The position numbers were made by a program, and so were the translations under genes. From contig OX411552.1 of NCBI GenBank assembly GCA_948146395.1, positions 4,959,501 to 5,023,500 of the forward strand: a stretch of 64,000 nucleotides of DNA, given 5' to 3'. This document shows, piece by piece, positions 13,301 to 52,143 of this stretch. How positions within the stretch are numbered: position 1 is the first letter of the stretch; every line of letters starts with the position of its first letter. The DNA is from Fragum whitleyi. Its lineage: Eukaryota > Mollusca > Bivalvia > Cardiida > Cardiidae. The notes under the pieces are model-generated. The model saw only the letters and a program-made list of their open reading frames with translations, made no database searches and was not told where the DNA came from.

Positions 13301-13309
13301 TACATATTT

Positions 13310-13640
<331 letters not shown>

Positions 13641-13649
13641 ATAGATTCA

Positions 13650-15501: not shown

Positions 15502-16162
15502 ATGCAGAATCTTAAAATAATGTCTAACAACTGCAGGGGTCTGAATAACACGAAAAAAAGAGTTGACATATTTAAATTATTTAAAGAAAAAAATTGCAGA
15601 CATTGTCTGTCTTCAGGAAACCCATTTTACTAAATGTATGGAAAAAACAATTTATACAGAATGGAATGGAGAATGCTTTTTCAGTCACGGCGCAAATAAT
15701 GCAAGGGGAGTGGCTATTTTAATAAAAAAACACACGGATGTTAAAGTGATTCACATGCATAACGACAACAACGGACAATTTATCATTCTAGACTTGATAA
15801 TAGATAATATTAAGTTTTTGTTAATCAATTTATACGCCCCAAACAATGACCAGCCAATTTTTTTCAAAAACATATTTGACTTAATTGAATCTTTTTCCTA
15901 CGAAAACTTTATTATATGCGGCGATTTTAACCTCGTCTTAAATCCAACGCTAGATTATCAAAATTACAAAAGTCCCCACCACAATAAAAATGCAAGAGAG
16001 TTTTTAAGAAGGAAAATCACAGAATTAAATATTGTAGATGCTTTCAGGGAAATCCATGGAAACACAAATAAATTTACTTGGAAAAGATTTAACCCATTAC
16101 AACAAGGAAGGCTCGATTTTTTTCTCATTACGAACAACCTTATTGAAAATATGAAAAACTGA
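15502..16162 (+). pseudogene. LINE endonuclease domain, frameshifted
   Basis: The N-terminal strand of the AP-endonuclease fold (MSNNCRGLN) starts at ATG 15502 in one frame. The continuation with IVCLQETHF, INLYAPN and ICGDFNLVL is in the next frame from about 15580. The last motif, with SYKSDHSII, falls in a third frame from about 16160. Both frame changes sit in runs of A (15578-15584 and 16153-16157), which fits small indels or sequencing error in homopolymers. In the family this domain nicks the target DNA to prime reverse transcription. As written the protein is not translatable in one piece. Confidence 0.8.
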
Positions 16163-19100
16163 TACATACTTAAGCTATAAATCGGATCACTCAATAATAT
16201 TTCTAGATTTGAACTTCAACAAAACAGAGCACGGAAAAGGTTTTTGGAAATTCAATAATTCTTTATTAAATGACACTAATTTTATTGATTCGGTAAATAA
16301 AAAAATAAATGAAGTAATTCTGCAATATTGTCTTCCTGTCTATAATTTTGAAAGTATTTTAATGATGGATAAATCGGAAATACAATTCATTATAGATGAC
16401 CAGCTTTTTTTAGAAACCCTTCTTATGGAAATTCGTGGACAAACTATTTCCTATTCAAGTCATAAAGCAAAAGAAATTAATAACCAGGAAAAAATATTAA
16501 TAGAAAAAATCGAAACAATAGAAAAAAAATTGAGCGATGATAATAAAGATACATTACAAATACTACAAGATGAGTTAAATACTTTAAGAGAAACGAAATT
16601 AAAAGGTGCATTTATTCGCTCAAGGTCGCACTGGATCGATAACGGAGAAAAAACAACACGTTATTTTTGTAATTTAGAAAAGCAACATAACCAGAAGAAA
16701 AGTATTCCCTTTATCCAAAATAATGAAGGTAACTACATCTACGACCAAAAGGAAATACTAAATGAAACAAAACAATTCTATGAGAATTTATATACTGAAA
16801 GAATAACAAACGAACAATTCGACTTAGCTTATAAATACCGCAACCTTAATATCAAAAAATTAGATAACAACCAAAAAGAAAGCCTAGAAGGCCTATTGAC
16901 GTACGAAGAGGTTACAAAAACTTTGAAGAATATGAAAAATGACAAAAGCCCTGGATGTGATGGTTTTAGCGCAAACTTTTATAAAATGTTTTGGAATAAA
17001 ATTGGTCATTTCGTTGTTAGAACATTGAACTTTGCATTCGAAGAAAACTTATTTTCAAAAAATATAAAATTAGGAACTATAACGTGTATACCAAAAGAAA
17101 ATAAACCTAAACAATTTTTAAAAAATTGGAGACCAATAACACTTTTAAATGTACTGTATAAACTAGCTTCTGGCTCAATTGCCAACAGACTTAAAAATGT
17201 ATTAGATCATCTGATTTCAAGAGATCAAACTGGATTTCTTAAAGGAAGATATATTGGAGAAAACACTCGGCTTGTATATGATATTATGAAATATTGCGAG
17301 GACAATAATATTCCAGGATTACTCATGCTCATTGATTTTGAAAAAGCTTTCGACTCCCTTTCATTCCATTTCATTGAAAAGACACTGTCTTTTTTTAATT
17401 TTGGGGATATGTTTAGAAAATGGATTAAACTCTTTTTATACAATACGCAAGTATGTGTTCAACTTAATGGATTCTTATCTGAGTTTTTCACTGTTAAAAG
17501 AGGCTGTAGACAAGGTGATCCCATATCATCATACTTATTTATTCTTTGCTCAGAAATCCTTAGTATTGAAATAAAACATAACCTTAAAATAAAAGGAATT
17601 AAGATAAGAGGCGATGAATATATCATTTCACAATTCGCTGACGATACCTCTCTCCTATTAGATGGGTCAGAAGAATCTTTACATGCTGTTCTTGAAACAC
17701 TAAACTACTTTTCCGAAATATCAGGCCTTAATGTAAACTTTGACAAAACCAAATTGATTTGGATAGGATCAATGAAATATAGCACCAGATCAATAAAAAC
17801 AAGATGGAAACTATCTTGGGGCGACACAACGTTTAAATTATTAGGCATAAACTTTAGTATAGATCTTACCTCGATGGAAAGCCTTAATTTCGATACCAAA
17901 CTAGAAAATTGCAGAAAGATCATTTCTTTCTGGAAGAGAAGAAAATTAACTCCACTGGGTAGAATAACAGTTGTTAAAGCGCTATTGATTCCAATATTTA
18001 CACATTTATTTATCAGTTTACCAACCCCGAAAAATGAGTTTATCTTCAAATTAAATGATTTATTTACCGAATTCATATGGGATGGTAGACCAAAAATCAA
18101 GCATAGCATAAGTATTAAACAATACTGCGACGGAGGTTTGAAGACCATTGACATCAAATGCTATATTCATTCAATGAAAGTTAAATGGTTACAGAAAATG
18201 ATAATACATAGCGAAAACGCATGTTATAGGCTTGCAAATAATTTATTCGATGTACAAGGGATTTTAACCTTCGGAAAATGCTACAGCAACATAATAAGCA
18301 AAAGACTCAAAAATCTTTTTTGGATCGATGTTCTCAAATCCTATAGCGCATTTATCGAAAAATATCAATTCACAAAATGGAAACAAATCTTACATATGCC
18401 CCTTTTCTACAATGAAAAAATCACTATTAACTCAAAATATGTATATTTCAGAGATATTTATTCAAATGGCTATCACTTACTCAAAGACATTCTAAATGAT
18501 GATTACTCATTTAAAAATATCGAACAAGTAAGAGAAAATTTAAAGACGAATATTAACTATCTTAATTTTTATAGCCTACGTAACGCAGTAAAGTCCTTCC
18601 TTTCAAGATTGAATATAAATACAGACTGTAATATTCTATCAACGTACCACAACCCCTCGGTCAATTGTTATTTTCATGAAATACTTACACACTCGAATAA
18701 ACATATTTACAATACGCTTATATCGAATGATGACATCCCCACTAGTCAACACAAATGGTCATCAATCTATACCCAATCGAATATAGATTGGAAACATGTG
18801 TACAGTAATATTTATAAGATAACTAAGAATACCTACTTACAGTGGTTACAAACGCGAATAAACCATAGAATATTACCAACAAATAAACTTTTATTTAAAA
18901 TGAATATAAAACCAAATTCTGAGTGTTCTTTCTGTGGTATAGAGGAAGAATCACTTATTCACTTATTTTTTGATTGCAACAATATAAAACCAATACTTGA
19001 TTTTTTAATACAAAAAATAAACTTTTACTACCCTGCTTTCACCTTAAATAGTGAGAATTTACTACTCGGCTATAAAAATGATGATATTAATATTCTCTTT

Positions 19101-19277
19101 CTTAACTTCAAACGTTACATTTTCACATGTAAAATCAAACACTACAAACCTTCTATAAGAGGCCTGATACACGACCTGTCTTTGTCATGGAGTATACAAA
19201 AATTATCAGATGCAGATCCCTCAACCTTTCAAAACTGGTCAGTGGTTAAGAGCCTTGTAGAGAGACAATCTGAGTAA
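16163..19277 (+). CDS. LINE reverse transcriptase with C-terminal zinc knuckle
   Basis: An open frame whose continuous part from 16209 is 1022 codons; it begins on a TTG, so the real start lies upstream in the endonuclease. A Lys/Glu-rich helical linker (about 86-130) precedes the RT. RT motifs are SPGCDGF (247-253), WRPITLLN (307-314), LIDFEKAFDS (374-383, catalytic Asp 376), RGCRQGDPIS (431-440) and FADD (476-479). The thumb and C-terminal region include TPLGRIT. A CCHC knuckle CSFCGIEEESLIHLFFDC lies near 905-922. No RNase H domain is evident. The reading frame is undamaged, so this part may have decayed little since insertion. Confidence 0.9.
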
Positions 19278-30520: not shown

Positions 30521-30991
30521 CTTCAATTCTTACACAGTGGGAAACTTCTTAGCCATAAACCAAGAAAAATAATGTATTTTCCAAAATGTATGGGATTCTT
30601 TGAACCTGTTTATGTGACCCCCACCCTCCAACCGGATGTATTACGCACGGGAGGTAATAAAAGTGGAAACATTAAAGAAAATAGAGATGTTGCTTGCAAG
30701 CATCTTCTGACTTTTCTCAATGCTTCCTTCAACACTTTGCGTCTTTTTTCAATTTCAACGCAAAATTAATTTACGGTGGAATTTTTTTGAAAATTGATAA
30801 GCCGTTACTCGTAATGTAAACTAGGGTTAAGACCGATAAAACGCCGTTATTTAGACAGGTTTTCCCGCATGACGGATCAAATAATATTTTTTTTAATATA
30901 AGATCACCATCTGTAATGGATAATTTATGTAACTGTTGTGTCGGCTTGCCCTTACACATTATCATCGATGTCAAGAGTTGCGAATAAGAAA
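30521..30991. other. No gene; left flank of the outer retrotransposon
   Basis: AT-rich with small frames. The last four bases before the LTR are GAAA, which recur after the 3' LTR and may be the target duplication. Confidence 0.4.
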
Positions 30992-31534
30992 TGTTATGTA
31001 TAAGCTATAAATAAACCTAATAGTATTTACCGTGTCTATTTTTAGACTGGGAATTTTCCTATCTCTTGATTCTGTTAGGTAAATGTATGTAGAATATTGT
31101 AGATCTTTCTAGAAAGGACTTCTGGAAAGTGATTCAGACTCTAGAGTATTCTTATGTTCTCTGCTATTCTAGATTATTCTATGGTATTATATAAAGGGGT
31201 TCCTACAGCATTCTTGGTTCACTTGTTTTAGACTTATGGTTTCATTTAGTAGTACTGTGTTAAACTAAAAGGGGATTTCTTGTTATCTTAAAAGTGTGTT
31301 TAAAAGCGTGTTTAATTTTGAATTCGGATATTATTGGACTTAATATTTGTGGACCAGAAACTTAATTAAATTGGATCTAAAATCAAAAACTTTAGGATTA
31401 AACATGCAAGGTATTGTAATTTGTTTTTGTATTAATTTCATATTGTCAATAATTCTGTTATTATTGTCAATAAATATTGTTAATTGTAAAGTTTGTTGCT
31501 GGCTTCTTTGTTCGTGTTACATTGGCACGTAACA
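30992..31534 (+). repeat. 5' LTR of outer element
   Basis: Begins TGTTATGTATAAGC and ends CACGTAACA. Contains a TATATAAA box at 31188-31195. About 80 bases upstream of it are two TTCnnGAA palindromes: TTCTAGAA at 31107-31114 and TTCTGGAA at 31120-31127. AATAAA words near 31009 and 31468 could serve polyadenylation. The first 14 of the 543 bases differ from the 3' LTR at one position. Confidence 0.92.
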
Positions 31535-31537
31535 TAT

Positions 31538-31555
31538 TGGGGGCTCGTCCGGGAT
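31538..31555 (+). other. Primer-binding site, tRNA-Pro type
   Basis: TGGGGGCTCGTCCGGGAT lies three bases after the 5' LTR. It is the 18-base tRNA-Pro primer site also known from murine leukaemia virus-type elements, and it primes minus-strand DNA synthesis. Confidence 0.85.
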
Positions 31556-31733
31556 ACGAACATCAGACAACCAAACAAAACAAAACAAATCAAACAAATT
31601 CTTTATTTAAATCTGCTGTTAAAAATTATTTAAGAAATTAATTTCATAATTCAATTTTGATAAATCTAGAGTGTACTTTCACTATTATTTATCGAAATCT
31701 TACATTCTTGTTTGAATACAGCAACAAGCTACC

Positions 31734-32719
31734 ATGTCTTTTGACTTAGAAAAAATTACGCACGAACCTTCCATGGAGCTATTGAATTTGGGTAAAAAGC
31801 CTGATTTGCTCAATCTTGCCAAGCATTATGAATTAAAAGAAGTCAAGTCCTCATTGCGAAAGCATGAAATTAAGAATATTTTGGTTCAATATTTTGTTGA
31901 TGAGGACATCTTTGATGAAAAGGCTCTGTCTCTCATTGTTGATGTTCCATCAGTTTCAAGCTCAAGAGATCTTGAACTGTTAAAACTCCAACAAAGAGAG
32001 AAGGAATTGGAAATAGAAAGAGAGAGAGAAGAGAGAAAATTTCAAGAAAAGCAATTAGAAATTGAAATTGAAAGAGAAAGAGCACAGAGAGAAATTGAAG
32101 AAAAAGAAAGAGAAAGGCAATTTCAAAGAGAAGAAATAGAACGAGAAGAAGAGAGAGCAGAGAGAGAGAGCGAGAAAAAGAAGGAGAATTTCAATTACGA
32201 TTAAAATAATTAGAAATACAAGATAGAGCAAATCAGCCCAGATATATGTATAATGACAATTTTGATGTAACAAAACATTTTAGGCTTGTTCCTCAATTTC
32301 AAGAAAATGAAGTTGATACATATTTCGAACATTTTGAAAAAGTTGCAAATAACTTGAAATGGCCAAAGGAGCAATGGACCTTACTTCTCCAAAGTGTCTT
32401 AGTAGGAAAAGCTCGCAATATTTATTCACAACTTAGAACAGAACAAAGCAATTATTATGAAACTGTAAAAGAACTCATTCTCAAAGGTTATGAGCTGGTA
32501 CCAGAAGCATACAGACAACAATTTAGAAGTTGTAGAAAAGAATCTGGCCAGACTCACGTTGAATTTGCAAGAAATGAAGAAAAATTATTTGACAGGTGGT
32601 GCTATTCTAAGAAAATAGACCAAAATTATGATAATCTTAGACAACTTATATTAATTGAACAATTCAAAAATTGCATTCAATCTGACATTAAGTCACATTT
32701 AGATGAAAAAACTGTTTAA
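31734..32719 (+). pseudogene. Outer element gag, broken
   Basis: ATG at 31734 in a good context (ACCATGTC). The N-terminal 75 residues include LNLAKHYELKEVK, followed by a long Glu/Arg/Lys coiled coil (about 75-150). Near 32170 the frame shifts, a TAA follows around 32204, and the capsid-like part continues in a second frame (FRLVPQFQENEVDTYFEHF, WTLLLQ, YRQQFR). That frame meets another TAA at 32717, after which the same frame stays open into the nucleocapsid and protease region. Gag would form the particle and bind genomic RNA. The N-terminal SAP-like and EVDTYF features resemble gag of other animal Gypsy elements. Not translatable intact as written. Confidence 0.8.
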
Positions 32720-33394
32720 ACTATACATGAAGCAGCTCGTTTAGCTGATGATTACTACCTTACACACACAAATTCTTTCGTTAATAAAGCAAAACCTGCT
32801 TCCTCACATCCCCAAAATAAATCTATGTCTGGTGATTCATCTAGCATGTCTAGTCAATCGAATTCACCTAAACCAAAGTCTACTGGTGAAACCAATGTTC
32901 AAAATCCCTTATCTCGAGTACATTGTACTTTTTGTAAAAAACCAGGTCACCTTATTTCAGAATGTTTTAGATTAAAAAGGAAGAAGGAACTGAGTGCAGC
33001 CAAACCTACAGGGCTCACCAGCCTTCAGCCTAAATCACAGCCTTCTTTTGAGTTAAATTCAATTGTTAAGGCAGAACCAAATTCTGATTCCTGTATGGAG
33101 ATTTTTGAACCGTTCATGTTAGATGGTTTTGTATCACTTTCAGGTGATTTGTGCCCACCTACCCCTATTAAAATTTTAAGAGACACAGGAGCTTCTCAAT
33201 CTCTTATTTTAGCAGATGTTCTGCCTTTTTCTGAGAAGACTTCGTCTGGTACTAGCGTCCTTATTCAGGGTGTAGAGTGTGGTATTATTAATATTCCTCT
33301 TCATAAGGTTAATTTGTCTTCAGATTTGGTTACTGGTTCTGTGGTTGTTGGTGTTAATATTCTTTACCATTTAAAGGTGTACATTTATTGCTAG
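32720..33394 (+). pseudogene. Outer element nucleocapsid knuckle and protease
   Basis: In frame with the preceding gag part beyond its stop codon. A CCHC knuckle CTFCKKPGHLISEC (codons from about 32927) is followed by a Ser/Pro-rich linker and a retropepsin active site DTGAS (33182-33196) in the context LRDTGASQSLI. The protease flap and C-terminal helix region switch frame near 33358-33370, so the frame ends prematurely at 33394 while the LLLGNDLAG continuation is in the integrase frame. Retropepsin would process the polyprotein. Broken here by the frameshift. Confidence 0.82.
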
Positions 33395-34491
33395 GCAATG
33401 ACTTAGCTGGAGATAAGGTTGTTTTTAATCCTCTTGTAACTGACACACCTAATGTAGGTCAAACAGATGATCCTATTTTGCAGGAAATACCTGATTTGTA
33501 CCCTTCATGTGCAGTAACTCGGGGTATGGCTAAAAAAGCTTCATTGAAAAATTCAAATGATATTGACTTAACTCATACTTTTGTTGGTCAATATTTCAAT
33601 GACGAGATTAAAAAGTATTTAAATCTTAGTCTGCCTGATACTCAGACAGACTCGTCAAAATTTTGTCAGTCATCTCCAAGGTCAAATGACCAAGGTCATG
33701 AAACGCATTCAAAGTCAAAGTTAATCCAGGAACAGCAAAATGATCCTGAGATTTCAAAGTTAATTGATAGGGCATTACCCGGAAAAGAAATGTCTCAGAA
33801 TCCTGTTTGTTACTATAAAAAGAATGGTATTCTGATGAGAAAATGGCGACCATTTGATGTCCCAGCTGATGACGATTGGGCTGTTCATCACCAAATTGTT
33901 GTTCCAAAGTCATATCGCCATGAAATACTTAGTATAGCACATGAAAGTCCAATGTCTGGTCATTTAGGTGTAAACAAGATTATGACTCATTTCTTTTGGC
34001 CTGGACTTAAATCGGACGTTTCCAAATATTGTAAAAGTTGCCACACTTGTCAAATGGTAGGGAAACCTAACCAAGTTATTTCAAAAGCAAGGTTACAACC
34101 CATTCCAGCTTTTGATGAACCTTTCAGTCGAATAATAATAGACTGCGTTGGTCCTTTACCAAAAACCAAGTCAGGTTCTGAATATTTGTTGACAATTATG
34201 TGTGCTTCTACTCGCTTCCCAGAAGCAATTCCTTTAAGAAACATTAAGGCAAAGTCAATCGTTAAGGCTCTTGTCAAGTTCTTTACTTTTGTTGGCCTTC
34301 CAAAATCAGTTCAGTCTGATCAAGGATCAAACTTCATGTCAGGCATATTCCAACAGGTTATCCATGAATTAGGTATCAAGCAATATCGGTCATCTGCTTA
34401 TCATCCTGAAAGTCAAGGTGCTTTAGAAAGATTTCATCAGACCCTAAAGAATATGATAAGGTCATATTGTTTTGATACTGAGAAAAACTAG
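33375..34491 (+). pseudogene. Outer element integrase, N-terminal and catalytic domains
   Basis: 367 codons are open from 33388. The HHCC zinc domain is HESPMSGHLG and CKSCHTCQM (about residues 187-225). The D,D-35-E core has IIDCVGPL, SDQGSNF and the glutamate in GALERFHQ, so all three catalytic residues are present. The frame ends in TAG at 34489-34491, a nonsense change after which the same frame resumes with DEGIHLLLF. Integrase inserts the cDNA into the genome. It lies upstream of RT, the reverse of the usual Gypsy order, and this placement rather than the protein itself is the unusual point. Confidence 0.88.
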
Positions 34492-35390
34492 GATGAAGGT
34501 ATTCATTTGCTATTATTTGCAGTCAGAGAATCTGTTCAAAAATCTCTTGGCTTTAGCCCCTTTGAGTTAGTTTTTGGTCATTCTGTTCGTGGGCCATTAA
34601 CACTCTTAAAAGAGAAATTTCTTGCTGATGATGAAACACCCTTGAACTTATTACAGTATGTTTCTGACTTCAGAAATAAACTGTCTAGGGCATGTGAGGT
34701 TGCTACGTCAAATCTTAAATCATCTCAGAGCAAAATGAAGGCAAGATATGACAAGCATAGTGTTGATAGGAAATTTGAACCAGGTGATAAAGTCCTTGCT
34801 CTTTTGCCAATACCTGGCCGACCCTTACAGGCAAGATATTATGGCCCGTATGCTATTGATAAGAAAACAAGTGATTTGAATTATATCATCAATACTCCTG
34901 GAAGGCGTAAAAATAAACAAATGTGTCATGTGAATATGTTAAAAAAGTATTTTGACAGAGATAGCTCTATTTCAAAACCGGTTACAGTTGTAAACACTGT
35001 CCCACAAGAATCAAATGTGATTGAATCAGAAGTTAATTCAGACTTTAGTGAAAAATCCGTTCCTGGTCCACCTAAACTTGAGAACTCTGAAATACTTAAG
35101 AATCTTGACGACAAACTTTCACATTTGGAGCCATCTCAACGAGAAGAGCTGAAACAGTTGATTAATGAATATGAACACTTGTTTCCTGACATCCCAACAA
35201 GAACTGATAAAATATATCATGATGTCATTGTGGAAGATTCTCAACCAATAAAACATCCTTATAGAATGAATCCAGTGAAACAAAAAGCCCTTCAAGATGA
35301 AGTGAATTACTTATTGGAGAATGACTTTATTGAACCCAGCCAAAATAATTACAGTTCACCATGTATATTAGTTCCAAAGCCAAATGGAAC
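34492..35390 (+). pseudogene. Outer element integrase C-terminus and start of RT, cut by insertion
   Basis: In frame with the integrase beyond its TAG. LGFSPFELVFGHSVRGPL is the usual post-core integrase segment, followed by a GDKVLALLP and YYGPY module (GPY/F-like) near 34780-34860. A Ser-rich linker leads into the RT N-terminus with IKHPYRMNPVKQ, LLENDFIEPS and SPCILVPK. The frame is cut at 35390 by the younger element. The RT continues in the same sense at 45556, with GAAC duplicated at the two junctions. The last 22 bases of the apparent frame (to 35412) are LTR sequence. Confidence 0.88.
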
Positions 35391-36575
35391 TGTAACGTTC
35401 GTGCATTATTAACTTAGCATCTTAGCAGCTTCTCTTACGATTGCTCAGTGTTAAAAATCAGGATTGTACGATTTCTGCTTTTTGGTAGTCGAATTTGCAT
35501 TTATTTCTAGTGCTAGATAACTTAGGGTTAAAACTAACTTGTATTCTTGTATTGCAATAGTTTTTATGCTGTTAATTTACCTTTATGAATGGCTATTGCA
35601 TTTATTCTTAAGCATTTCGCTCTATTTATTACTGCTTTCTCGTGAGATTCTTGGAAAGTCGGCCATATTTGTCTGAAATGCTGTGGTTTGTCCGTTTACT
35701 TTTCCATATCCAAGAGGATGCGATTTTACTAGTAATTTTAATAGAGGCGTAAGGATAGTATCAGTTGTGTTCCGATTGAGTACTATACTTCCGCCAGCGT
35801 TTCACGAGATGTGACGTCACTACCTGCGTCATTTTTAGTATAAATAGCGCGTTGTTTTGAATTTTCATCAGAGTTTTTCTCGCTCTCAACAAAAGCACAT
35901 CGCTTCGTTATTAAATCAAAGGCTAGAACCCTATTTCCCCCAACGACCTTCATCTAATCCCGTCAAGTGTAATAATAGACACATACGTCGGGATGCCCCA
36001 AGAGGTAATAAGGGAATAGAGGTTTAATTTTGTACCCGACCGTTGGAGGATTCTGGAGAATTTGACGACATTGGAATAATGTGGTCAACCCCACCCAGAA
36101 TTCTCCAATACTAGACTCTCCAAAATTCTCCGTTCCCAAGGTTTACTGAGAAAGCTTCGATTTCTCCAATATTTATCTTTTGTAAAATGAAACATGAATT
36201 GTAAATTTCTAACATCTTTGGAATAATATTAGAGTAGCCAAACATTAAATGTGTAAACTGTTATTCCGTTTTGGGTGGTATTTTCTTTTGCCTTTATAGA
36301 TCTATTTAATCCCAATCTAGATCTATCTCCCCAAGTATTCTCCAGAATACTCCATCTTCCATATTCCTATCCAAAAGCCGGGTCCAGGACGATCCCGTAA
36401 ACGTGACGGGATATATCCCCCAGTATTTAAGTCTCTTGTTGGACTTCGAACCATAAACGGGTTAGGGTTATACACCCTTAGAATCCGTTCATTGTGTTTT
36501 GGCGTTGTGCGTCTGTCGGTCTGTGTCTGCACGGTTACGTGTTGTTGACGACGTTCTAAGTGGGGGTCCGTTACA
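35391..36575 (+). repeat. 5' LTR of inner element
   Basis: TGTAACGTTCGTGC to GGGGGTCCGTTACA. Contains a CRE and TATA pair (separate entry). By eye the only difference from the 3' LTR is T versus A in the word just before TATAAATA. Confidence 0.95.
35812..35846 (+). promoter_or_regulatory. CRE and TATA box of the inner LTR
   Basis: The palindrome TGACGTCA (35812-35819) lies 19 bases upstream of TATAAATA (35839-35846); the same pair is at 44792 and 44819 in the 3' LTR. TGACGTCA is the consensus site for CREB/ATF factors. About 30 bases further, around TCATCAGAG, is a plausible start of the R region. That cAMP or stress kinases drive this LTR is inference. Confidence 0.6.
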
Positions 36576-36581
36576 GAAATT

Positions 36582-36599
36582 TGGTGGCAGCGGTGGGAT
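36582..36599 (+). other. Primer-binding site, tRNA-Leu type
   Basis: TGGTGGCAGCGGTGGGAT begins six bases after the 5' LTR. It matches the complement of a tRNA-Leu (AAG-type) 3' end ATCCCACCGCTGCCACCA; the assignment is from memory of the animal tRNA sequence. Confidence 0.75.
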
Positions 36600-36676
36600 C
36601 TGTCATCTTGGAATCGGTGGATAGTTAAATTTGTCTATTTTCCTAACTCAATGGGACAAATTAGAGAGACATAAGT

Positions 36677-37990
36677 ATGGAAGATTCGGGGACAGTTACA
36701 TTTAATCCCGATAGGCTACAAAATTCCATTGAAAATCATAATTCAGAGGATGAGACCGATAATGTTAGTAGTAACGATTCACATAGCCCCGGGGACGGAG
36801 AGTCTGGAAATCCTGTTGATCAAATTCGCCAATGTATGCGGGAAATAAGGTCGGAATTGGCCATAGATATAAAATTGCTTAAGTCTGAAGTTCGCAGTTG
36901 TTTGAGTGACTTTGACAATAAATTGCATGATTTGCAAACTCAAGTGCATTCACAACCTAGCAATTACAGCTCAAACAACCGTCGAAATGTTCGCAACTCT
37001 AGCTCCCCTTTTCCCCCATGCATTGATTTTGATGAGCACGGTGATCGGCGTATACACAGTACCCCTGATCACATTGATAGTGTAGGTAGTCGTCGCCATG
37101 AAAGTCGCAGCCAATATGCTTTATCTAACCCTAGCACCGGTAATATTGGACCGTCGGGTTACGACCATGTATCTGGGGGTAGGGATAAAATACGACCACA
37201 GATATTTGATGGCTCTGAAGATCTGGACGAATACCTTACACAATTCAATATCATTGCCGACTTAAACTCTTGGGACTATAAAACAAAGTCCCTTTACTTA
37301 GCTAGTAGTCTGGGCGGATCGGCTCGAGCGCTGCTGGGTGAATTAGACTCAAATCAGCGAAGAGATTTTGTGAAATTAGTTGAGATCTTGAAAAATAGAT
37401 TTGGATCTGTTAATAGAGCGGAAGTTTTCCGATCAAAGTTACAATCAAGAAAACTAGGCAAAAATGAAAGTTTACCAGAACTAGCTCAGTCAATTAAATG
37501 TCTTACTAGGAAGGCATATCCATGCGCTTCCATGGAAGTCATTGAGATTTTAGCTTTAGACCATTTTATTGATGCTATACCAAACTCAGACATTCGACTC
37601 AGACTTCGTGAAGTGGGACCTGGCACGGTGACCGAGGCCGAGCAAATCGCAGTGCGACTAGAAGCCCACAGGATAGCGGATCGTAGTCGTGATGGACACC
37701 ACGTTCGCGGCGTCGAACCCGTTGAAACCCAGTCTACGAAGACTGAAGACAAACTGGCCGAACTTTGTAATAAAATGTCGGAATTGGTGAAAGAAATGGC
37801 GAATTTTAAACCCAATGTAGAAAATCGGCACCAGGAACAAAATAATGGCTATAATAATAAGAAATGGCAAAAGAAGCGTAAATTTCAGAATTGGAATAAG
37901 AAGAATGAGGGAAACGGACAAGGGTCGAGTTCGTCGGGGACCGAAGGTCGACCACAACCGAGAGATCCCCAGACAAACCAATCCCTGTAA
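36677..37990 (+). CDS. Inner element Gag
   Basis: 437 codons from ATG 36677. The N-terminal 47 residues are acidic and Ser/Asn-rich, 48-92 are a probable coiled coil, and a capsid-like core runs from about 173 (PQIFDGSEDLDEYLTQF) to about 335, with the usual LYLASSLGGSARALL and SLPELAQSI helices. The tail (about 388-437) is rich in Asn, Lys and Gly (NNKKWQKKRKF). No CCHC zinc knuckle is present, unlike the outer element, so the basic tail may bind RNA instead. The frame overlaps pol, which lies in the -1 frame. Gag builds the particle in the cytoplasm. Intact, no internal stop. Confidence 0.9.
   Translation: MEDSGTVTFNPDRLQNSIENHNSEDETDNVSSNDSHSPGDGESGNPVDQIRQCMREIRSELAIDIKLLKSEVRSCLSDFDNKLHDLQTQVHSQPSNYSSNNRRNVRNSSSPFPPCIDFDEHGDRRIHSTPDHIDSVGSRRHESRSQYALSNPSTGNIGPSGYDHVSGGRDKIRPQIFDGSEDLDEYLTQFNIIADLNSWDYKTKSLYLASSLGGSARALLGELDSNQRRDFVKLVEILKNRFGSVNRAEVFRSKLQSRKLGKNESLPELAQSIKCLTRKAYPCASMEVIEILALDHFIDAIPNSDIRLRLREVGPGTVTEAEQIAVRLEAHRIADRSRDGHHVRGVEPVETQSTKTEDKLAELCNKMSELVKEMANFKPNVENRHQEQNNGYNNKKWQKKRKFQNWNKKNEGNGQGSSSSGTEGRPQPRDPQTNQSL
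37909..37970 (+). promoter_or_regulatory. Candidate -1 ribosomal frameshift signal, gag to pol
   Basis: The slippery heptamer G GGA AAC (37909-37915) is in the correct phase of the gag frame. Pol is the -1 frame and is open from just before this point. Seven bases later GGTCGA (37923-37928) can pair with TCGACC (37948-37953), and loop bases GGGGA (37936-37940) can pair with TCCCC (37966-37970), giving an H-type pseudoknot. A nested hairpin TCGG/CCGA is an alternative. GGGAAAC is an established slip site in some retroviruses. Confidence 0.7.
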
Positions 37991-40900
37991 ATCCTGTTTA
38001 CCGCATTCAAGAAGATGGCTTGTTTGTAAACGCTACGATACATGACCAGCGATTATCTTTCTTAATTGACACTGGTTCAAACATCAGTATTTTGAACAAA
38101 AATATACTTCATTTATGGTCAAATAAAAGTGACTTAAAAATTGAACCTGTCTTCCAGTCTATGGTGACTGTTACTGGCCAAACGGCACCCTTTCATGGTA
38201 AAGCAAATTTTTCTATAAACATTGGAACTCAAACTTTTGAACATAGCCTGTATCTAGCCGATATAAACAATGACGGAATTTTGGGCATTGATTTTCTACA
38301 AAGGTTTAACTGCAATGTTTTGTTAAATAAACGATGTTTAGAAATCGGGAGTGAACGCATTTCTTGCTACTCGTTAAAAAGTACTGAAAACTATAAATGT
38401 TGTCGTGTAACAGTGAAGGAAAACATGGTTATTCCTCCTGAAACGGAAATAATTTTACCAGGCAAATTATCTGGGCCTGTATCGCATTCCGTGGGAGTTA
38501 TAGAACCGCATGAAAAATTTGTCTCGAAAAGCGGATTATTGATCGCGAAAAGCGTGATAGATCTTAAAAATGGTGAAATTCCTTTGCGAGTAGTGAATTT
38601 GGGTATCGAACCTTGTACCGTGTACAAAGGGACTGTGGCTGCAGTTTATGAATCTGTTTCTGAACAAAACATTCAATCCTTAGAAGCCATATCGGTAAAC
38701 AACTCCTCAATACTGGAGTCCCTTCCGAACCACCTTACTCCAGTTTTCGATAAAGTTGACAAAACATTGTCTGAAGAGCAAATTTGCACTGTCAAACAAT
38801 TGCTCGTGCAGCATCAGAACTTGTTTTCAAAAGATGCGGACGACATAGGTCGTACTCACTTGGTAGAACATACCATTGACACGGGAAACGCTAAGCCCGT
38901 GAAATTACCACCGTACCGTATACCCCTTGCTAAACGCGCGGTTGCAGAGCAAGAAATTAAAAAGATGAAAGAAAGCGGTATAATAGAACCTTCTTGCAGT
39001 CCTTGGAGCAGCCCGATCGTCATTGTTGCTAAAGGAAACGGTAGCGTAAGGTTTTGCTGTGATTTTAGGAAACTAAATGATCTGACAATAAAAGATAGCC
39101 AACCTTTACCTCGTATTGACGATACTCTAGACGCTTTATCCGGCTCAGTATGGTTTAGTACCATAGACTTAAAATCCGGTTTTTGGCAAATTGCGATGTC
39201 TGAGAAAGACAAACCGAAGACTAGTTTCTCCATCCAGGGCTCTGGGCTCTGGCAGTTCCGAGTAATGCCATACGGGCTCTGTTGCGCCCCGGCGACCTTC
39301 GAACGCTTAATGGAAAGAATACTGTCGGGTTTGACGTGGCAAATATGTCTAGTATATCTGGACGATATTATAGTCTTTTCTAAAACGTTTTCTGAGCACG
39401 TTGAGAATTTAAAGACTGTATTCGCACGTCTGCGGGACGCTAATCTAAAGCTTAATCCCGAAAAATGTAATTTGTTTCGTAAGAATGTCGCCTTTTTAGG
39501 ACATGTAATAAGCGAGTCTGGAATTGCTACCGATCCTGCGAAGATCGAGAGCGTTAAAAACTGGCCTATTCCTAAAAACGTCAAAGACGTACGCAGCTTC
39601 CTTGGCTTATGCTCATACTATCGTCGCTATGTCTTTCAATTCTCAACGATCGCCAAACCGTTACATAAATTAACGGAAAAGGGTGAAAGGTTTGCTTGGA
39701 CACAAGAGTGCGACGAGGCTTTTAATTTATTGAAAAGCAATCTTTTAAAAGCACCGGTCTTAGCATATCCAATTTCGGAAGGAGAATTTATCCTTGACAC
39801 GGACGCGAGCGGTTACGGTATATCAGGTGTTTTATCACAAATTCAGGGTAATGAAGAGAAAGTAATTGCTTACTATAGTAAATGCTTATCAAAAGCAGAA
39901 AGGCGGTATTGCGTAACAAGGCGCGAATTGCTCGCCGTAGTCAATTCTGTAAAACAGTTTCATCATTATCTTTATGGTCAACATTTTTTGGTACGTACAG
40001 ACCACGCATCCTTAAGGTGGTTGACCAATTTTAAAAATCCAGAAGGGCAATTGGCTCGCTGGATTGAACTTTTGTCGACATACGATTTTCGGATTGAACA
40101 TAGAGTGGGACGTTCCCATTGTAATGCCGATGCTTTATCGCGTAGACCGTGCGATAACATAGGCTGTAGTTATTGTGAAAGAGCGGAAGCTAAGTTCGAA
40201 TGCGCGGAGGGTAAGCGTTGTGCACGTGTTACATATAAAACCGACAATTTGTCAAATTGTAAGCATAACCAAAGGCCCATGACCAGGTTTGAACGCTTTG
40301 AGACAAGTACCGAAAGTACGCCTAATTTACTTGGTGTGGTGACTTGTGAGCGCCAAAGTGTGAACTTGCCGTGTCGAAGAGTTGAGAATGCTCCCGAGAT
40401 TAATAACATAGAGACCTTTCAACCTAAGGTAGTTATTAATAAGCATTCCCCGAGTAGTTGTAATATTCCTAAAAGCGAACAACATAACGAGGCACACCTC
40501 AATTATATTGATGAGTGCATGTTGTCGTATGCGGAGGAAGCGAAAGGCGCGAAGTTTGAACTCTGTAATAACTACAATATACAGAACAGAACGTCGAGAG
40601 AGAAAGTAGGGAAAAGCGTTAATCATAATTTGTCGTCAAATAGTTCATGTCACGTAGAGTGCATTTCTGAAACTTGTCTAATTAAAGATAAAAGTGCTAA
40701 ATGCTCCGTGAAGAATCGGTGCTGTAATACTCAAATTCAGGGTCAGTCAGATGACCATAAGCATACTTCTTTAAAGTCAGCCCAAGAAGCTGACCCGACT
40801 ATCACTTTACTCAAGGAGTGGAAATCTCAGAATGTCACACCGTCATGGTCGGATATATCTGAACGATCAGCCGAGACTAAGTTCTATTGGAATAGGTTAG

Positions 40901-42081
40901 ACTCTCTTCTTATAAGCGATGACTTGCTCTGTCGCAAATGGGAGAATGAGATCGGAGACTATCACGAGATTCAGATAATCCTTCCCAGGTCCTTAGCTCC
41001 GGAAATTCTGAGAGAATTTCACGATAGTCCTACGGGAGGACATTTGGGCATTACTAAAACGCTAAGTAAATTACGCACTCGATATTTTTGGTATGGTATG
41101 CGAAAAGATGTGAAAGAATGGTGTAGGAAATGTGATCGGTGTGCAATGCGTAAAAATCCGAGACGCAAGCCAAGGTCTGCTTTAAAGCAATATAATGTCG
41201 GTTTACCACTTGAGCGGGTAGGCATTGATATAATAGGACCGGTTGTTCAAAGCGATCACGGGAATAGATACATTCTTACCATTTGCGATTATTTCACAAA
41301 GTTCGTAGTCACTGTGCCGATGAAAAATCAAGAGGCTAAAACGGTAGCTCAAAGTTTAATAGACCGATTCGTCTCGATATTCGGTATACCTCTGCAGTTA
41401 CACTCCGATCAGGGCACTAACTTTGAATCAGTTCTATTTAAAGAGATATGTTCTTTACTGGGTATTGACAAAACGAGGACAACGGGTTTCAGACATCAGT
41501 CTGATGGCCTCGTCGAAAGGTCAAATCGAACCCTTCAAAACATGTTGGCAAAGTTTGTATCCCAGAATCCGAATGAATGGGATCAGTACTTGCCTTTAAT
41601 AACATTGGCATATAATACGTCTGTCCAAGAGACTACGAAATTTAGTCCATGTAAACTCATGTTTTGTAAAGAACTGAATTTACCCGTAGATCTAGTGTAC
41701 GGAAAGCCTCCGGGGCAATCAAAATTGACAAGTGATTACGCGAAAACAGTCGAGGATAAATTATCGCAAATACATGATATCGTGCGTAAAAATATTGCGT
41801 TAGCAAGTCACACGCAAAAGAAAAATTATGACCATAAAATAGCACAAAAGCTGTACAATGAGGGAGACCTGGTATGGTTATTTAACCCAAAACCAAAAGC
41901 CGGTAAAAGCTCTAAGTTCAGATGTCCGTGGGATGGTCCATGGGTCGTAACAAAACGCTTGAATGACGTTATCTATAGAATACAGAAGTCGCCTCGTTCT
42001 ACTCCGCGTGTTGTCCATCACGATCGATTAAAACGATATGAGGGTTTAAAAACGTCTTGGCTTAGTGAATCAAAGCACTGA
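37916..42081 (+). CDS. Inner element Pol: protease, RT, RNase H, integrase
   Basis: Open in the -1 frame relative to gag from the slip site to TGA 42081; the part from 38020 is 1353 codons. Numbered from 38020: protease DTGS at 17-20 in FLIDTGSNISIL; RT with CDFRKLN, VMPYGLCCAPATF and YLDD near 445-448; RNase H DTDASG near 591 and ending ADALSRR near 705. A linker of about 220 residues with many Cys (CDNIGCSYCERAE) and low similarity to anything I know follows. Integrase has HDSPTGGHLG and CRKCDRC (about 1001-1040), catalytic D in GIDIIGP, D in SDQGTNF and E in VERSNR, and a C-terminal WDGPWVV (GPY/F-like) module without a chromodomain. All catalytic residues are present, so the enzyme set looks functional. 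Confidence 0.93.
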
Positions 42082-42121
42082 TAGCACTGCACTGCCAAAC
42101 GGCAATATATGCAACAACTGA

Positions 42122-42142
42122 AAAACTCTCTTCTCTTTACAG
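42122..42142 (+). other. Candidate splice acceptor for the cargo transcript
   Basis: AACTGAAAAACTC (branch-like) is followed by TCTTCTCTTTACAG, with the AG at 42141-42142, 60 bases after the pol stop. The zinc-finger frame begins directly after it and has no ATG of its own before the finger, which fits entry by splicing. The donor was not identified; the leader or gag region is expected. Confidence 0.55.
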
Positions 42143-42622
42143 TTTGCCTGTGACATTTGTGACAATAAGTTCACAAAATACCACCGAGCACAGCGGCATG
42201 TCCAAGAAAAACACTCGGGGTTCCAGTTCCAATGTAGACGATGTAGGAAATTGTTCTCCAGGAAGAACTATAAACATGGGTGTGGCAAGGTTGAGAAGGA
42301 CGATCTCGAGTTACTGTCACGGGAAGGAGTGCGTGGGGAGGAGGCATATGTACTTTTCCGACAGTGGAAGAGAAATGTCCAGGCAAAGATCATCAAGGAT
42401 GTTCCTGAGCGGCTAGTGCTGGTAACTAGCGAACCAGAGACTCTCCCAACTACTGGAAAGAGAAAACAACCAAAGGAGACAAACCTTGATGAGTTTCAGG
42501 CCCCAGGGAGATTGTCGCCCCTTCCCCGTCACCAATTCGTAAAAAGGGAAAATTCGAACGAATTGAAACAGATACTGAAAGTGACAGTGACTCTGAAAGT
42601 GAAACTGAACGTGAACACATGA
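42143..42622 (+). CDS. Cargo frame 1: C2H2 zinc-finger protein
   Basis: The frame starts at the acceptor and shows a C2H2 finger CDICDNKFTKYHRAQRHVQE-KH (C-x2-C-x12-H-x4-H). A second, irregular CRRCRKLFSRKNYKHGC motif follows, then a basic and helical stretch (LFRQWKRNVQAKIIKDV) and a Pro/Ser-rich linker. It ends at TGA 42620-42622, inside the ATG of the next frame (ATGA overlap). The last 40 or so codons look unlike protein (LKVTVTLKVKL), whereas the -1 frame over the same bases (42493-42618) is acidic and protein-like. The true reading may therefore change frame near 42500-42550. Likely role: nucleic-acid binding. Alternatively, the N-terminal part of one fused protein broken by an indel. 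Confidence 0.6.
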   Translation, partial: FACDICDNKFTKYHRAQRHVQEKHSGFQFQCRRCRKLFSRKNYKHGCGKVEKDDLELLSREGVRGEEAYVLFRQWKRNVQAKIIKDVPERLVLVTSEPETLPTTGKRKQPKETNLDEFQAPGRLSPLPRHQFVKRENSNELKQILKVTVTLKVKLNVNT

Positions 42623-43305
42623 ACAAGGAACCAAGTGAAACAAACAAACAAACTGAACAGATTACCAAAGTACAAACTGGTCAAAATAATCCAGAACGAA
42701 CTGAAAAGAACGCAAATGTACAAACGGAACAACATACTCAAGACGAAGTCAAAACTAAACAAAATGCGGAAAGAGACATGGAGCACATCTTATCCACTGC
42801 GGGGCCTGACATAGAAGCCGACATTTCGAGAGAGTTCCCCGGAGTAGAGTTCGACCCCCCTACCCGTGTCACCGAGAGCCCCAGACCGAATGGCCTAAGC
42901 GCCAAGCTCGAGGCGTTCAAGAACGCGCAGGGGCAGCGGGTTGTTTTGAATGTTGGTGGGGTCCGCTTTGAGTGTTCGCGGGAAACTCTCAGACGAGACC
43001 AAAACAGCCTTCTCGCCGAGATATTTGATGACCAATCGACTGTTAAGCCTACCCTTGGAAACCAGTACTTTTTCGACCGGGACCCAGCCCACTTCAGATT
43101 CATTTTGAATTACCTCCGGAGCGGTTGTAAGGTAGACCTTAGGACCCTGCCAAAGGACGCCCGTTACCTCTATGAACTTTTCTACGAAGCTGAATATTAT
43201 CACCTCAACAAGTTAATGGAGGCCATCGTAGCAAAGATAGAGCAAATTAACGTTGTAAATGTAAGCTTGCCTGGTCATCCAAAGCACGTATTCCATGTGG
43301 AATAA
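42619..43305 (+). CDS. Cargo frame 2: KCTD/Kv-type T1 (BTB) domain protein
   Basis: 228 codons from ATG 42619. Residues 1-100 are polar and low-complexity (Thr/Gln/Glu-rich). Residues 107-205 are a T1/BTB_2 domain with the diagnostic words VVLNVGG (108-114), RETLRRD, YFFDRDPAHFRFILNYLRSG (150-169) and LPKDARYLYELFYEAEYYHL. The family comprises Kv-channel tetramerisation domains and KCTD adaptors of Cullin-3 ligases. There is no transmembrane segment, so KCTD-like is the better match. The frame stays open upstream to 42493 with an acidic Glu/Ser/Asp stretch, so ATG 42619 may be internal. The segment is visibly GC-richer (about 60 percent in a 60-base hand count at 42841) than pol. This fits capture of a host gene. 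Confidence 0.85.
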   Translation: MNKEPSETNKQTEQITKVQTGQNNPERTEKNANVQTEQHTQDEVKTKQNAERDMEHILSTAGPDIEADISREFPGVEFDPPTRVTESPRPNGLSAKLEAFKNAQGQRVVLNVGGVRFECSRETLRRDQNSLLAEIFDDQSTVKPTLGNQYFFDRDPAHFRFILNYLRSGCKVDLRTLPKDARYLYELFYEAEYYHLNKLMEAIVAKIEQINVVNVSLPGHPKHVFHVE

Positions 43306-44358
43306 TTATCGACGTGCATGAATGACTCCGAGTATCTCTCCTTGCATTGGTGAATGCTATTAAAGCGCCACCAATGGATAGAGAATACTCCGAGTTCCGT
43401 TAACTGTAGACTACCTCCCTCATGGAAACTCATGTACTTAATAGTCCATGAGTTTGCGAGTGAGTGGTGGTCCATTTTCCTATTTTCAGGGACGTAATCA
43501 TTGTATCGAAATTAAAACACTTCAAAATTGATTTACGGTCGGAACTCAAAAGTTGTTGTCATTTTCAATAAATTATATTTCTGCAGTTCTTATCAGAGAG
43601 AAACTTGTTTTTTTTTATTTTTTAAGTAAATAAGTTTTATACTTTCTCTCAAACTTCAATTTCATACTCCTGATGCATGGTATGAACGTATCAGTGTATC
43701 CGGAGTGTGTTGTTTAATACTCAGGTATTAGCTACTTTATAATATTGTTAATTGTTTTAATACTTATTGGTGTTCTGTGCGAAATGCATGATGGATTCCA
43801 GCTCGAGGCATGATTTGTAAAGACAATCGTCACGGTTGTAGTTACCTTGTTTTGCATTTAGCATTTTTCTATAAATTGCTGATTTTCTAGTCAGATTTGA
43901 GTTCGGAACACTTAACTTTTAAGAAGGTCCATTATTAATTGGGTACTTGTTATCATTACTCAAATGCCTTTGCAAGTACTGTCAAGGTTTTTGAGTTATG
44001 TTTATTTAATTATTAAATACAAATATTGATTAGGAAGTGTTTCCTGGCAAACAAGTACACCCATTGTCTTTGCAACCAGTAAAGATAAGTGTCATAAGAT
44101 ATTCAGAAAAATCAAAGTACTGAAGACACTGTTTGGCCATTTACTTCAATCTTTGGAATTTAAGTTTTAAAGTGTTCCGAACTAAGAATCATGCATATTG
44201 AACTTAATTTCTATTTTCACAGAACACATGACTTGTGTTTTGAACATGTATTGTTGTTTAAAAATTTTAATTTGTTAGTTTAACCATGTTTCTAGCACAT
44301 GTCCTTACATAGAGCTTGTCTGTTTTTGCCTGCCTATTTGAGGTCAAATACCTTACTT
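43306..44358 (+). other. Inner element 3' non-coding region
   Basis: About 1 kb without coding sequence. Right after the T1 stop, two arms near 43325-43395 (ACTCCGAGTAT and GAATACTCCGAG with an ATTGGTG/CACCAAT pair) can form a stem. A separate 282-base inverted-repeat unit lies at 43901-44182. Confidence 0.6.
43901..44182. repeat. 282-bp inverted-repeat unit inside the inner element
   Basis: GTTCGGAACACTTAACTTTT at the left pairs with AAAGTGTTCCGAAC at the right (44169-44182), the arms continuing imperfectly. Either a MITE inserted in the retrotransposon or a structural part of its 3' region. Confidence 0.55.
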
Positions 44359-44370
44359 GGAAGGGGGCAA
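44359..44370 (+). other. Polypurine tract of inner element
   Basis: GGAAGGGGGCAA immediately precedes the 3' LTR and would prime plus-strand DNA. Confidence 0.8.
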
Positions 44371-45555
44371 TGTAACGTTCGTGCATTATTAACTTAGCAT
44401 CTTAGCAGCTTCTCTTACGATTGCTCAGTGTTAAAAATCAGGATTGTACGATTTCTGCTTTTTGGTAGTCGAATTTGCATTTATTTCTAGTGCTAGATAA
44501 CTTAGGGTTAAAACTAACTTGTATTCTTGTATTGCAATAGTTTTTATGCTGTTAATTTACCTTTATGAATGGCTATTGCATTTATTCTTAAGCATTTCGC
44601 TCTATTTATTACTGCTTTCTCGTGAGATTCTTGGAAAGTCGGCCATATTTGTCTGAAATGCTGTGGTTTGTCCGTTTACTTTTCCATATCCAAGAGGATG
44701 CGATTTTACTAGTAATTTTAATAGAGGCGTAAGGATAGTATCAGTTGTGTTCCGATTGAGTACTATACTTCCGCCAGCGTTTCACGAGATGTGACGTCAC
44801 TACCTGCGTCATTTTAAGTATAAATAGCGCGTTGTTTTGAATTTTCATCAGAGTTTTTCTCGCTCTCAACAAAAGCACATCGCTTCGTTATTAAATCAAA
44901 GGCTAGAACCCTATTTCCCCCAACGACCTTCATCTAATCCCGTCAAGTGTAATAATAGACACATACGTCGGGATGCCCCAAGAGGTAATAAGGGAATAGA
45001 GGTTTAATTTTGTACCCGACCGTTGGAGGATTCTGGAGAATTTGACGACATTGGAATAATGTGGTCAACCCCACCCAGAATTCTCCAATACTAGACTCTC
45101 CAAAATTCTCCGTTCCCAAGGTTTACTGAGAAAGCTTCGATTTCTCCAATATTTATCTTTTGTAAAATGAAACATGAATTGTAAATTTCTAACATCTTTG
45201 GAATAATATTAGAGTAGCCAAACATTAAATGTGTAAACTGTTATTCCGTTTTGGGTGGTATTTTCTTTTGCCTTTATAGATCTATTTAATCCCAATCTAG
45301 ATCTATCTCCCCAAGTATTCTCCAGAATACTCCATCTTCCATATTCCTATCCAAAAGCCGGGTCCAGGACGATCCCGTAAACGTGACGGGATATATCCCC
45401 CAGTATTTAAGTCTCTTGTTGGACTTCGAACCATAAACGGGTTAGGGTTATACACCCTTAGAATCCGTTCATTGTGTTTTGGCGTTGTGCGTCTGTCGGT
45501 CTGTGTCTGCACGGTTACGTGTTGTTGACGACGTTCTAAGTGGGGGTCCGTTACA
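44371..45555 (+). repeat. 3' LTR of inner element
   Basis: 1185 bases, the same length as the 5' LTR, with one difference noticed. GAAC follows at 45556, matching GAAC before the 5' LTR. Confidence 0.95.
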
Positions 45556-46667
45556 GAACATACAGAATGTGTACTGACTATCGAAAAGTGAACTCTGTGA
45601 CAAAAACTGACTCTTTTCCAATTCCAAGAATTGATGACTGTATTGACAAAGTCGGTAATTCTAAATATGTCACAAAATTTGACCTTCTCAAAGGATTCTG
45701 GCAAGTTCCGCTCACTGATAGGGCTAAAGAAGTATCAGCATTTGCTACTCCAACTGGTCTGTACCAGTACAAAGTTATGCCGTTTGGGATGAAAAATTCT
45801 CCTGCGACGTTTCAGCGGCTTGTAAATATGGTTATAGCTGGCTTAGATGGCTGTGACGCATACATCGATGATGTCATCATCTATACAGATACATGGAGTG
45901 ACCACCTTCAAAGAATCAAACAATTCTTCGACCATCTCAGTGAAGCAAAATTGACTGATAATCTGGGAAAAACAGAATTTTGTCATGCTACTGTTACTTT
46001 TTTAGGACATCTTGTGGGACAGGGTCAAGTTAAACCTTTAGAATCTAAGGTCAATGCTATCTCTGAGTTTCCAGTGCCTGCTACTAAAAAGCAACTGATG
46101 CGATTTCTTGGTATGGCTGGCTACTATAGAAAGTTTTGTAAGAATTTTTTTTCTATAATAGCTGAACTTTTAACAAATTTATTAAAGAAAAATGTTAAGT
46201 TCAAATGGAATGATAACTGTCAAGTTGCCTTTGATCGCTTGAAAGCCATACTAAAGAGCACACCAGTTCTTTTAGCACCTGATTTTGACAAATGTTTCAA
46301 ATTAGCTGTTGATGCAAGTGATGTGGGTATTGGTGCTGTTCTCTTGCAAGAAGATGGTGATGGTATTGATCATCCCGTTTGTTATTTTTCTAAAAAATTA
46401 AACAAACATCAGAAAAACTACTCAACCATTGAAAAAGAATGTCTTGCTCTGATTTTGGCAATCCAACATTTTGAAGTTTATTTAACATCTGCAACTTCTC
46501 CTATAGTTGTTTTCAGTGACCACAATCCCTTAAGTTTTCTTCACAAACTTAAGAGTAAGAACCAAAAATTATTGAGGTGGAGTTTGTCACTTCAAGAATT
46601 TGATCTTGATGTAAGACACATTAAAGGAAAAGACAATATTATACCAGATGCTCTGTCAAGAGTCTAA
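45556..46667 (+). pseudogene. Outer element RT (remainder) and RNase H
   Basis: Continues the RT of the outer element after the insertion. Motifs: CTDYRKVNSVT, KFDLLKGFWQV, VMPFGMKNSPATF and the IDD box in AYIDDVIIY. RNase H has VDASDVGIG, KECLAL and FSDHNPL and ends with PDALSRV at stop 46667. Nothing coding follows before the LTR, so RNase H is the last domain, as expected when integrase is upstream. This 370-codon piece has no stop or frameshift. The apparent start of the frame at 45540 is only LTR sequence. Confidence 0.9.
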
Positions 46668-51408: not shown

Positions 51409-52143
51409 TTATCCATCAGAAATGAGTGACATTTCTGTTTGGATAATTTTGTTGTTACCCCAGCAGGGCTGGTACGAGAGGATAGGCAAACCGTGAGGGC
51501 CTTCTAACATGGGACCGTTTAACTGAAATGTTTCACACCTACTCCCGAACCACCAAGCAGTTTTGAAAAGCTCGGAACAATTTGTAGAATCATCGTGGTC
51601 GTTATCAGCATCAAATGTGGAGAACATCATACCGGTGCCCACCTTATATTCATCCAATTCTTTAGAACATTCGTCGCCCATATTTTGTAGGCTGTAAAGA
51701 ATCATCCGATATTTTTGTCTTGCAACCAGTCTGAACTCCTTAAATTGCAAAGACGCAAAGACTTTAGAACCGGGTTCATCTATCGTCAAGTGAATGTACA
51801 GCCCGTATTTATTGGTGTTTGTCAAGGTAGCGATATGTTCAAGACCCAGCCAATATTCAGTTTCATGAGAAGCGTTCCCAAACCCCGACACATAATCGGA
51901 CCAAGGGCGGTAGAAATCCAGCGATCCAGAATATCTGGATTGAAACACTGTTAAAGGACCAGTGTTGATACCGCCTGGCAGGATACACCTAACGTATACA
52001 GTACTCCCCGTTTTATTAATATATAGAGGATATACTCCCTCGTCTGAATGTCCCGCCTCTTTGTGTTTGTTACAATCTTGTCGTGGTATGGTTGTTACTA
52101 TGTTCTCTGGGTGTTGTGTAGTGCTCACTTTTGTAACAGGCAG
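51409..52143 (-). CDS. Fibrinogen-related domain (FReD) protein, C-terminal exon
   Basis: The exon starts at 52143 after TTTCTTTTTAG and ends at TAA 51409. Numbered from the first GTG at 52128 (239 residues), the FReD runs from about 16 to the end: first Cys pair C19-C48, TVFQSRYSGSLDFYRPW (60-76), GFGNASHETEYWLGL (82-96), the Ca-binding DADNDHDDSTNC (173-184), second Cys pair C184-C198 around AWWFGSRC, and NGPM...TEMSL at the C-terminus. This is the lectin-like domain of ficolins, tachylectins and invertebrate FREPs, which are secreted pathogen- or glycan-binding proteins. The usual GGWW is TAWW. The acceptor is phase 0, and two phase-0 first exons lie upstream. It is complete, with no stop or frameshift. 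Confidence 0.92.
   Translation of the reverse strand: MPVTKVSTTQHPENIVTTIPRQDCNKHKEAGHSDEGVYPLYINKTGSTVYVRCILPGGINTGPLTVFQSRYSGSLDFYRPWSDYVSGFGNASHETEYWLGLEHIATLTNTNKYGLYIHLTIDEPGSKVFASLQFKEFRLVARQKYRMILYSLQNMGDECSKELDEYKVGTGMMFSTFDADNDHDDSTNCSELFKTAWWFGSRCETFQLNGPMLEGPHGLPILSYQPCWGNNKIIQTEMSLISDG

Follow-up and report, generated by a model that had tools for sequence, protein, structure and literature searches.

Genes that follow pol in LTR retrotransposons are often read as env relics. In the window, by which we mean the whole 64,000-nucleotide stretch of Fragum whitleyi DNA analysed here, this position of a Ty3/Gypsy-type element holds sequence for a zinc finger-T1 protein that has been kept under selection. 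What is this protein, how is it expressed, and what might it do for the element? We see about an even chance that the locus is a young Gypsy element whose third gene, ORF3, is likely expressed from a spliced LTR mRNA and encodes a predicted self-assembling, nucleic-acid-binding regulator.

The element spans positions 35391-45555, has TG...CA ends and is flanked by a 4-bp target site duplication, GAAC (35387-35390 on the left and 45556-45559 on the right, unstranded); all its other features lie on the plus strand. Alignment of the 5' LTR (35391-36575) with the 3' LTR (44371-45555) gave one mismatch in 1186 aligned columns, and overruns the LTR by one base because the target duplications begin with G. 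The 5' LTR contains a TATA box, TATAAATA, at 35839-35846, assigned by consensus match only. A 437-codon gag frame (36677-37990; weak Retrotrans_gag match, E 0.026) is followed by an open pol frame (38020-42081) in which Pfam coordinates place protease, RT, RNase H and integrase in the Gypsy order. After ORF3, a non-coding tail (43306-44370) ends in a purine tract, GGAAGGGGGCAA, immediately before the 3' LTR. This is a young Ty3/Gypsy-type LTR retrotransposon, and the LTRs, target duplication and open gag and pol bear out the original prediction of a young Gypsy element with an intact pol. Among the best 120 of 537 pol matches, named relatives came from Pinctada, Mercenaria, Solemya, Ruditapes and Mytilus. 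Troyka is likewise a Gypsy-like LTR element; however, the available part of its description gives it 3-bp duplications and CG...CG ends in place of 4-bp and TG...CA, and we rejected membership on these two differences (PMC12440569).

The element sits within the pol frame of another Gypsy-like element (30989-35390 and 45560 to about 47244), which has 300-base end-repeat pieces, starting at 30989 and 46945, that are 99% alike. These are nested recent insertions, and the outer element is also young. Elsewhere in the window, 15563-19277 holds Exo_endo_phos endonuclease, RVT_1 and zf-RVT frames of a LINE-type element, and an open frame at 51409-52128 on the minus strand encodes a fibrinogen C-terminal domain (PF00147, E 7e-35) and is possibly part of a host lectin-like gene. 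There is a 168-base repeat array at 7676-9000 and a short-unit self-complementary repeat array, with a spacing of 8-14 bases, at 13234-13665.

Two separate frames, one with C2H2 fingers and one of 228 codons with a T1 domain, had originally been read after pol. Both are present on the same strand in the env position, the latter at 42619-43305, but they are parts of one gene encoding one protein, the 228-codon frame being the second half of ORF3. In three of six near-identical genomic copies (on contigs C11, C3 and C4; 387, 387 and 384 codons) ORF3 is a single uninterrupted frame: it starts at a CAG that resembles a splice acceptor, encodes a C2H2-C2HC finger pair and then a linker, and ends with the T1 part. 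ORF3 is broken in the other three copies: in the window copy the linker differs in length by one base and the frame stops after 159 codons; in C14 it stops after 180 codons; and in C1, where the strict frame-search string was not matched, the finger part and the T1 part lie in different frames. In the window copy the finger frame opens directly after the CAG ending at 42142 and comprises C2H2 and C2HC fingers (42143-42283; zinc ligands and model), followed by a helix with an RG.EA motif (42335-42391; conservation and model), a charged linker with the frame change (42392-42939; copy comparison and low pLDDT) and the KCTD-type T1/BTB_2 domain (42940-43221). In the three intact frames the first methionine comes only after the fingers, at codons 213, 160 and 157.

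Profile searches and structure models were used to characterize these domains. The T1 frame matched PF02214 over residues 108-201 (E 3.4e-20; 72.6 bits against a cut-off of 21.4), ending 27 residues before the C-terminus of the protein, so the absence of a T1/BTB match named beforehand as a possible refutation did not occur. A Pfam scan of ORF3 gave no env-like family, and only BTB_2 was above cut-off. The C2H2 assignment fared less evenly, as the finger pair of an intact copy gave only a weak Pfam match (zf-C2H2_4, E 0.35), below cut-off; however, all eight zinc ligands are kept in distant relatives and the AlphaFold2 model of the finger part forms a C2H2 helix and a second finger, with a further helix at the RG.EA motif. 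This model had a mean pLDDT of 74, with blocks of residues 1-90 at 78-92 except residues 41-50 at 63; pLDDT was low in the linker. Comparison of the finger-part model with the PDB returned mostly DNA-binding fingers, none significantly. The T1 model (residues 91-210) had block pLDDT values of 81-97 and matched the structures of the oligomeric BTB domains of KCTD13, 16, 17, 15 and 10 by Foldseek (E about 1e-7).

We searched the 1.2246 Gb assembly (38 contigs, with the window on C10) using positions 42143-43305, and found the six near-identical copies (97-100%, the window's included) and a diverged relic on C12. The LTR pairs of five of these copies differ at 1, 2, 2, 2 and 2 sites, and that of the C14 copy at 20 of 1056; 4-bp target duplications also flank the copies on C11, C3, C4 and C1. 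Over the six copies, with codons gapped in any copy removed and broken copies read in the reference frame, ORF3 had a pN/pS of 0.18 over 379 codons, on roughly 43 synonymous and 30 non-synonymous changes, and the 477 codons of the pol end had one of 0.29. This shows that ORF3 has been under purifying selection across the copies, and was therefore constrained while the six copies arose.

Among at least 32 LTR rows we identified eight copies with internal sequence, of which seven carry ORF3 or its remains, a tally in which copies lacking ORF3 may be undercounted. The T1 domain is thus not the one-off insertion that had been named as a refuting outcome. Full-length single LTRs on C11 (47.59 Mb), C6 (62.55 Mb) and C17 (33.18 Mb), and fragments on C1, C2, C3 and C7, lie outside this count. 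The eighth copy (C12, about 43.89 Mb; rows L059 and L060, C12:43.886-43.897 Mb) retains gag, pol pieces and the tail at 96-99% identity but lacks ORF3: a deletion at a CAT microhomology has removed what lay between a few codons past the acceptor and the T1 tail. About 11.5 kb of other DNA interrupts its 5' LTR. Either some copies can do without an ORF3 in cis, or the loss post-dates insertion; this deletion is our chief finding against ORF3 being essential to each copy. Together with the three broken frames, it would also suit the view that ORF3 is a passenger, host sequence picked up a single time that now drifts and does nothing for the element. We regard that view as very improbable given the pN/pS of ORF3 and the wider distribution and ancestry of the module.

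This distribution extends well beyond the window family. The T1 frame had 32 matches in the genome, 15 of which represent 13 loci with both fingers and T1; pol sequence adjoins 12 of these loci, the exception being one on C16 with no pol match in the piece examined. The remaining 17 matches, to judge from those rows that were examined, resemble host KCTD or Kv genes. Two copies on C15 form a distinct family with the same pol-finger-linker-T1 order, which is 50% identical to the window family in pol, 43% in gag (full length, one copy), 39-47% in the finger part and 42% in T1. Their LTR pairs are 99.5% and 99.9% identical; one copy (C15b) has a CTAG duplication and the other (C15a) has no matching 4-bp duplication. 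In both families gag ends in a basic Asn/Lys/Arg-rich tail (36677-37990 in the window; L051 and L052 for C15), and no CCHC knuckle or CX2C pair was seen when the gag sequences were read.

In Mytilus edulis a single predicted protein, P0066, combines RT, RNase H and integrase with the same kind of finger pair, charged linker and T1. The module is probably also present in Ruditapes, where the source contigs of P0137 (T1) and P0020 (pol) are of equal size, 199,630, which suggests that they are one contig; predicted P0137 begins in the linker, so the finger region lies outside it. A profile search recovered 45 proteins at E <= 1e-8, some of them host-type, such as coral P0159. A pattern search identified complete finger pairs in P0066, P0143, P0147, P0149, P0150 and P0152, and a few other profile-matched proteins start in or near the second finger. 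The 22 pattern matches among viral contigs included no relative. Identity between the four lineages is 37-57% in T1 and 45-50% in pol, and the zinc ligands, helix motif and T1 domain have been kept across this distance, which argues further against a drifting passenger. ORF3 is a real third gene, common to several elements and under selection.

Some annotated bivalve proteins may accordingly be retroelement genes. In Ruditapes philippinarum, P0137 and P0138 contain a T1 of the ORF3 type; these are likely to be genes of retroelements that have been misnamed, as flap endonuclease 1-like and nipped-B-like. Five further T1 proteins, P0142, P0148, P0005, P0135 and P0136, are close to the element group, and some of them may be host genes derived from ORF3.

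The original prediction had a young element capturing host sequence, and proposed a phylogeny against host KCTD genes as a check. We built a tree of 33 T1 domains, 17 labelled as element, 11 as host KCTD-like and five as Kv-like; the element labels rest on likeness, with neighbouring pol checked for a minority of the 17 rows. The KCTD-like domains formed one group (100/99) and the Kv-like domains another (100/99), with the element domains outside both, and a single clade of all 17 element domains was not rejected (p-AU 0.40), a result that falls short of demonstrating one origin. We rejected recent capture of a host KCTD exon in view of a module common to elements with pols 45-50% identical, shared with the C15 family, M. 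edulis and probably Ruditapes, and the position of the element domains outside both host groups likewise leaves such an origin unsupported. A T1 that is not nested within the host KCTD-like group also argues against the passenger view.

No ATG precedes the fingers, and in both families the LTR's first-ATG leader meets a phase-matched donor; translation of ORF3 is therefore likely to proceed from an mRNA that begins in the LTR and is spliced. A pyrimidine tract and CAG directly before the first finger form a predicted phase-0 3' splice site, at 42126-42142 in the window and in the same arrangement in the C15 family. The first ATG lies 154 (window) or 118 (C15) bases past the TATA box, and its frame reaches GAG|GTA in phase 0 after four codons (MPQE) or six (MPMKEE). 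In the window the predicted leader exon would have the coding end ATG CCC CAA GAG (35993-36004), next to a candidate donor, GTAATA, at 36005. Unspliced, the leader ATG gives a frame of only eight or nine codons.

Both donors score weakly against the consensus, at 2.4 bits in the window (first of 161 GTs) and 1.4 bits in C15 (sixth of 185). A search of gag and the leader for a strong donor gave the LTR site itself as the best GT of the window element, and five sites of higher score in C15; there we prefer the LTR donor because of the position of the first ATG, not its score. The leader and donor layout is alike in the two families, yet blastn of the window LTR against the C15 locus aligned only pieces of 22 bases or less. 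Shuffled leaders yielded such a first-ATG/donor site in 123 and 61 of 5000 trials, figures to be read with the pattern having been chosen after it was seen. The site is unchanged in ten LTRs of five other copies and, in the 89% C12 relic, differs by a single synonymous change; a C7 relic has GAG|GTT and one changed leader codon.

What would a protein made in this way do? We infer from its domains that ORF3 may bind nucleic acid and oligomerise, and a multimeric RNA- or DNA-binding regulator fits the combination of a finger pair, a T1 oligomer and a spliced mRNA. In such a scheme the leader exon (MPQE, or MPMKEE in C15) would be spliced in phase to the CAG ahead of the first finger, the T1 domain, of a type that forms rings in other proteins, would make a ring-like oligomer and so bring the finger pairs together, and the oligomer would coat or cluster element RNA or DNA. 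It might then control the export or transcription of the unspliced genome, as Cer1 CERV or Rev- and Tas-type regulators do; the retroviral Rev- and Tas-type proteins serve here as a comparison of how ORF3 could work. We put at somewhat below an even chance the reading of a long-lived molluscan Ty3/Gypsy lineage with its own LTR-leader-spliced regulator, in which a T1 ring multimerises the fingers in a Rev- or CERV-like, or a Tas-like, manner. If true, this would offer a way to study genome regulation and export in animal LTR elements without env.

The T1 domain could also serve a different end. Lentiviral accessory proteins use other cullins to degrade host factors, and ORF3 could be a Cullin-3 adaptor whose T1 recruits Cul3 and whose finger end selects a host factor involved in silencing or restriction to be degraded. 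The nearest solved T1 domains, by sequence and by fold, are KCTDs, several of which bind Cul3, and KCTDs commonly assemble as Cul3 ligases, according to the available part of a KCTD study, in which the T1 protein KCTD1 acts as a transcriptional repressor without binding Cul3 (PMC7618933). The Cul3-contact loop has a proline in 15 of 17 element T1s against 6 of 16 host T1s, a weak hint against such an adaptor; in the accessible text of another report this proline is proposed to block Cul3 binding in KCTD1/15 (PMC10856315), but the KCTD7 and KCTD5 sequences also hold it, which weakens the argument. KCTD proteins, moreover, have an N-terminal BTB followed by a C-terminal substrate domain, whereas the T1 of ORF3 is C-terminal with the fingers ahead, and we judge the adaptor role unlikely.

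Still less probable, in our view, is that ORF3 builds or targets a particle or integration complex, with the fingers binding genomic RNA or target DNA and T1 linking copies. Gag of both families lacks a CX2C pair and the fingers are conserved along with pol, as such a role would have it, but a separately spliced message alone would not place ORF3 in a gag-pol particle, and no known contact links ORF3 to gag or integrase.

ZBTB factors carry a dimeric-type BTB at the N terminus and zinc fingers at the C terminus. ORF3 likewise joins zinc fingers to an oligomerising BTB-superfamily domain, but its domain is of the T1 type (PF02214, the only family above cut-off) and the order is reversed, fingers first; we therefore rejected its assignment as a BTB-zinc-finger factor. 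With KCTD proteins it shares the T1/BTB_2 domain by profile (PF02214, E 3.4e-20) and fold, yet the order differs and the element T1s fall outside the host KCTD-like group (100/99). Neither a word search of open papers for an LTR element carrying T1, KCTD or BTB, nor our literature searches for this potassium-channel/KCTD oligomerisation fold as a retroelement regulator, gave an example among the papers listed. One of the closest classes of elements is that of bdelloid rotifers, where, in the accessible part of the report, LTR retrotransposons have an added, family-specific, non-envelope ORF3 after pol, typically expressed from spliced messages, and some ORF3 types are common to distant elements (PMC5408684). 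The rotifer types are GDSL esterases, DEDDy exonucleases, coiled-coil and transmembrane proteins, whereas the window ORF3 is a finger-T1 protein, and the words 'BTB' and 'zinc finger' are absent from the available text of that paper (PMC5408684). The element itself is of a known kind, and what is new is the type of ORF3 that it carries, a finger-T1 protein.

The nearest worked example that we found is CERV of Cer1, an LTR retrotransposon of C. elegans. CERV, like ORF3, is an extra element protein; in the available part of the report it is made from a spliced mRNA, self-assembles and is needed for genomic RNA export, and ORF3 is predicted to share the splicing and self-assembly (PMC10309623). 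That text calls CERV a novel protein and its available part mentions no finger or T1; we liken the two by putative mode of action, not by homology (PMC10309623).
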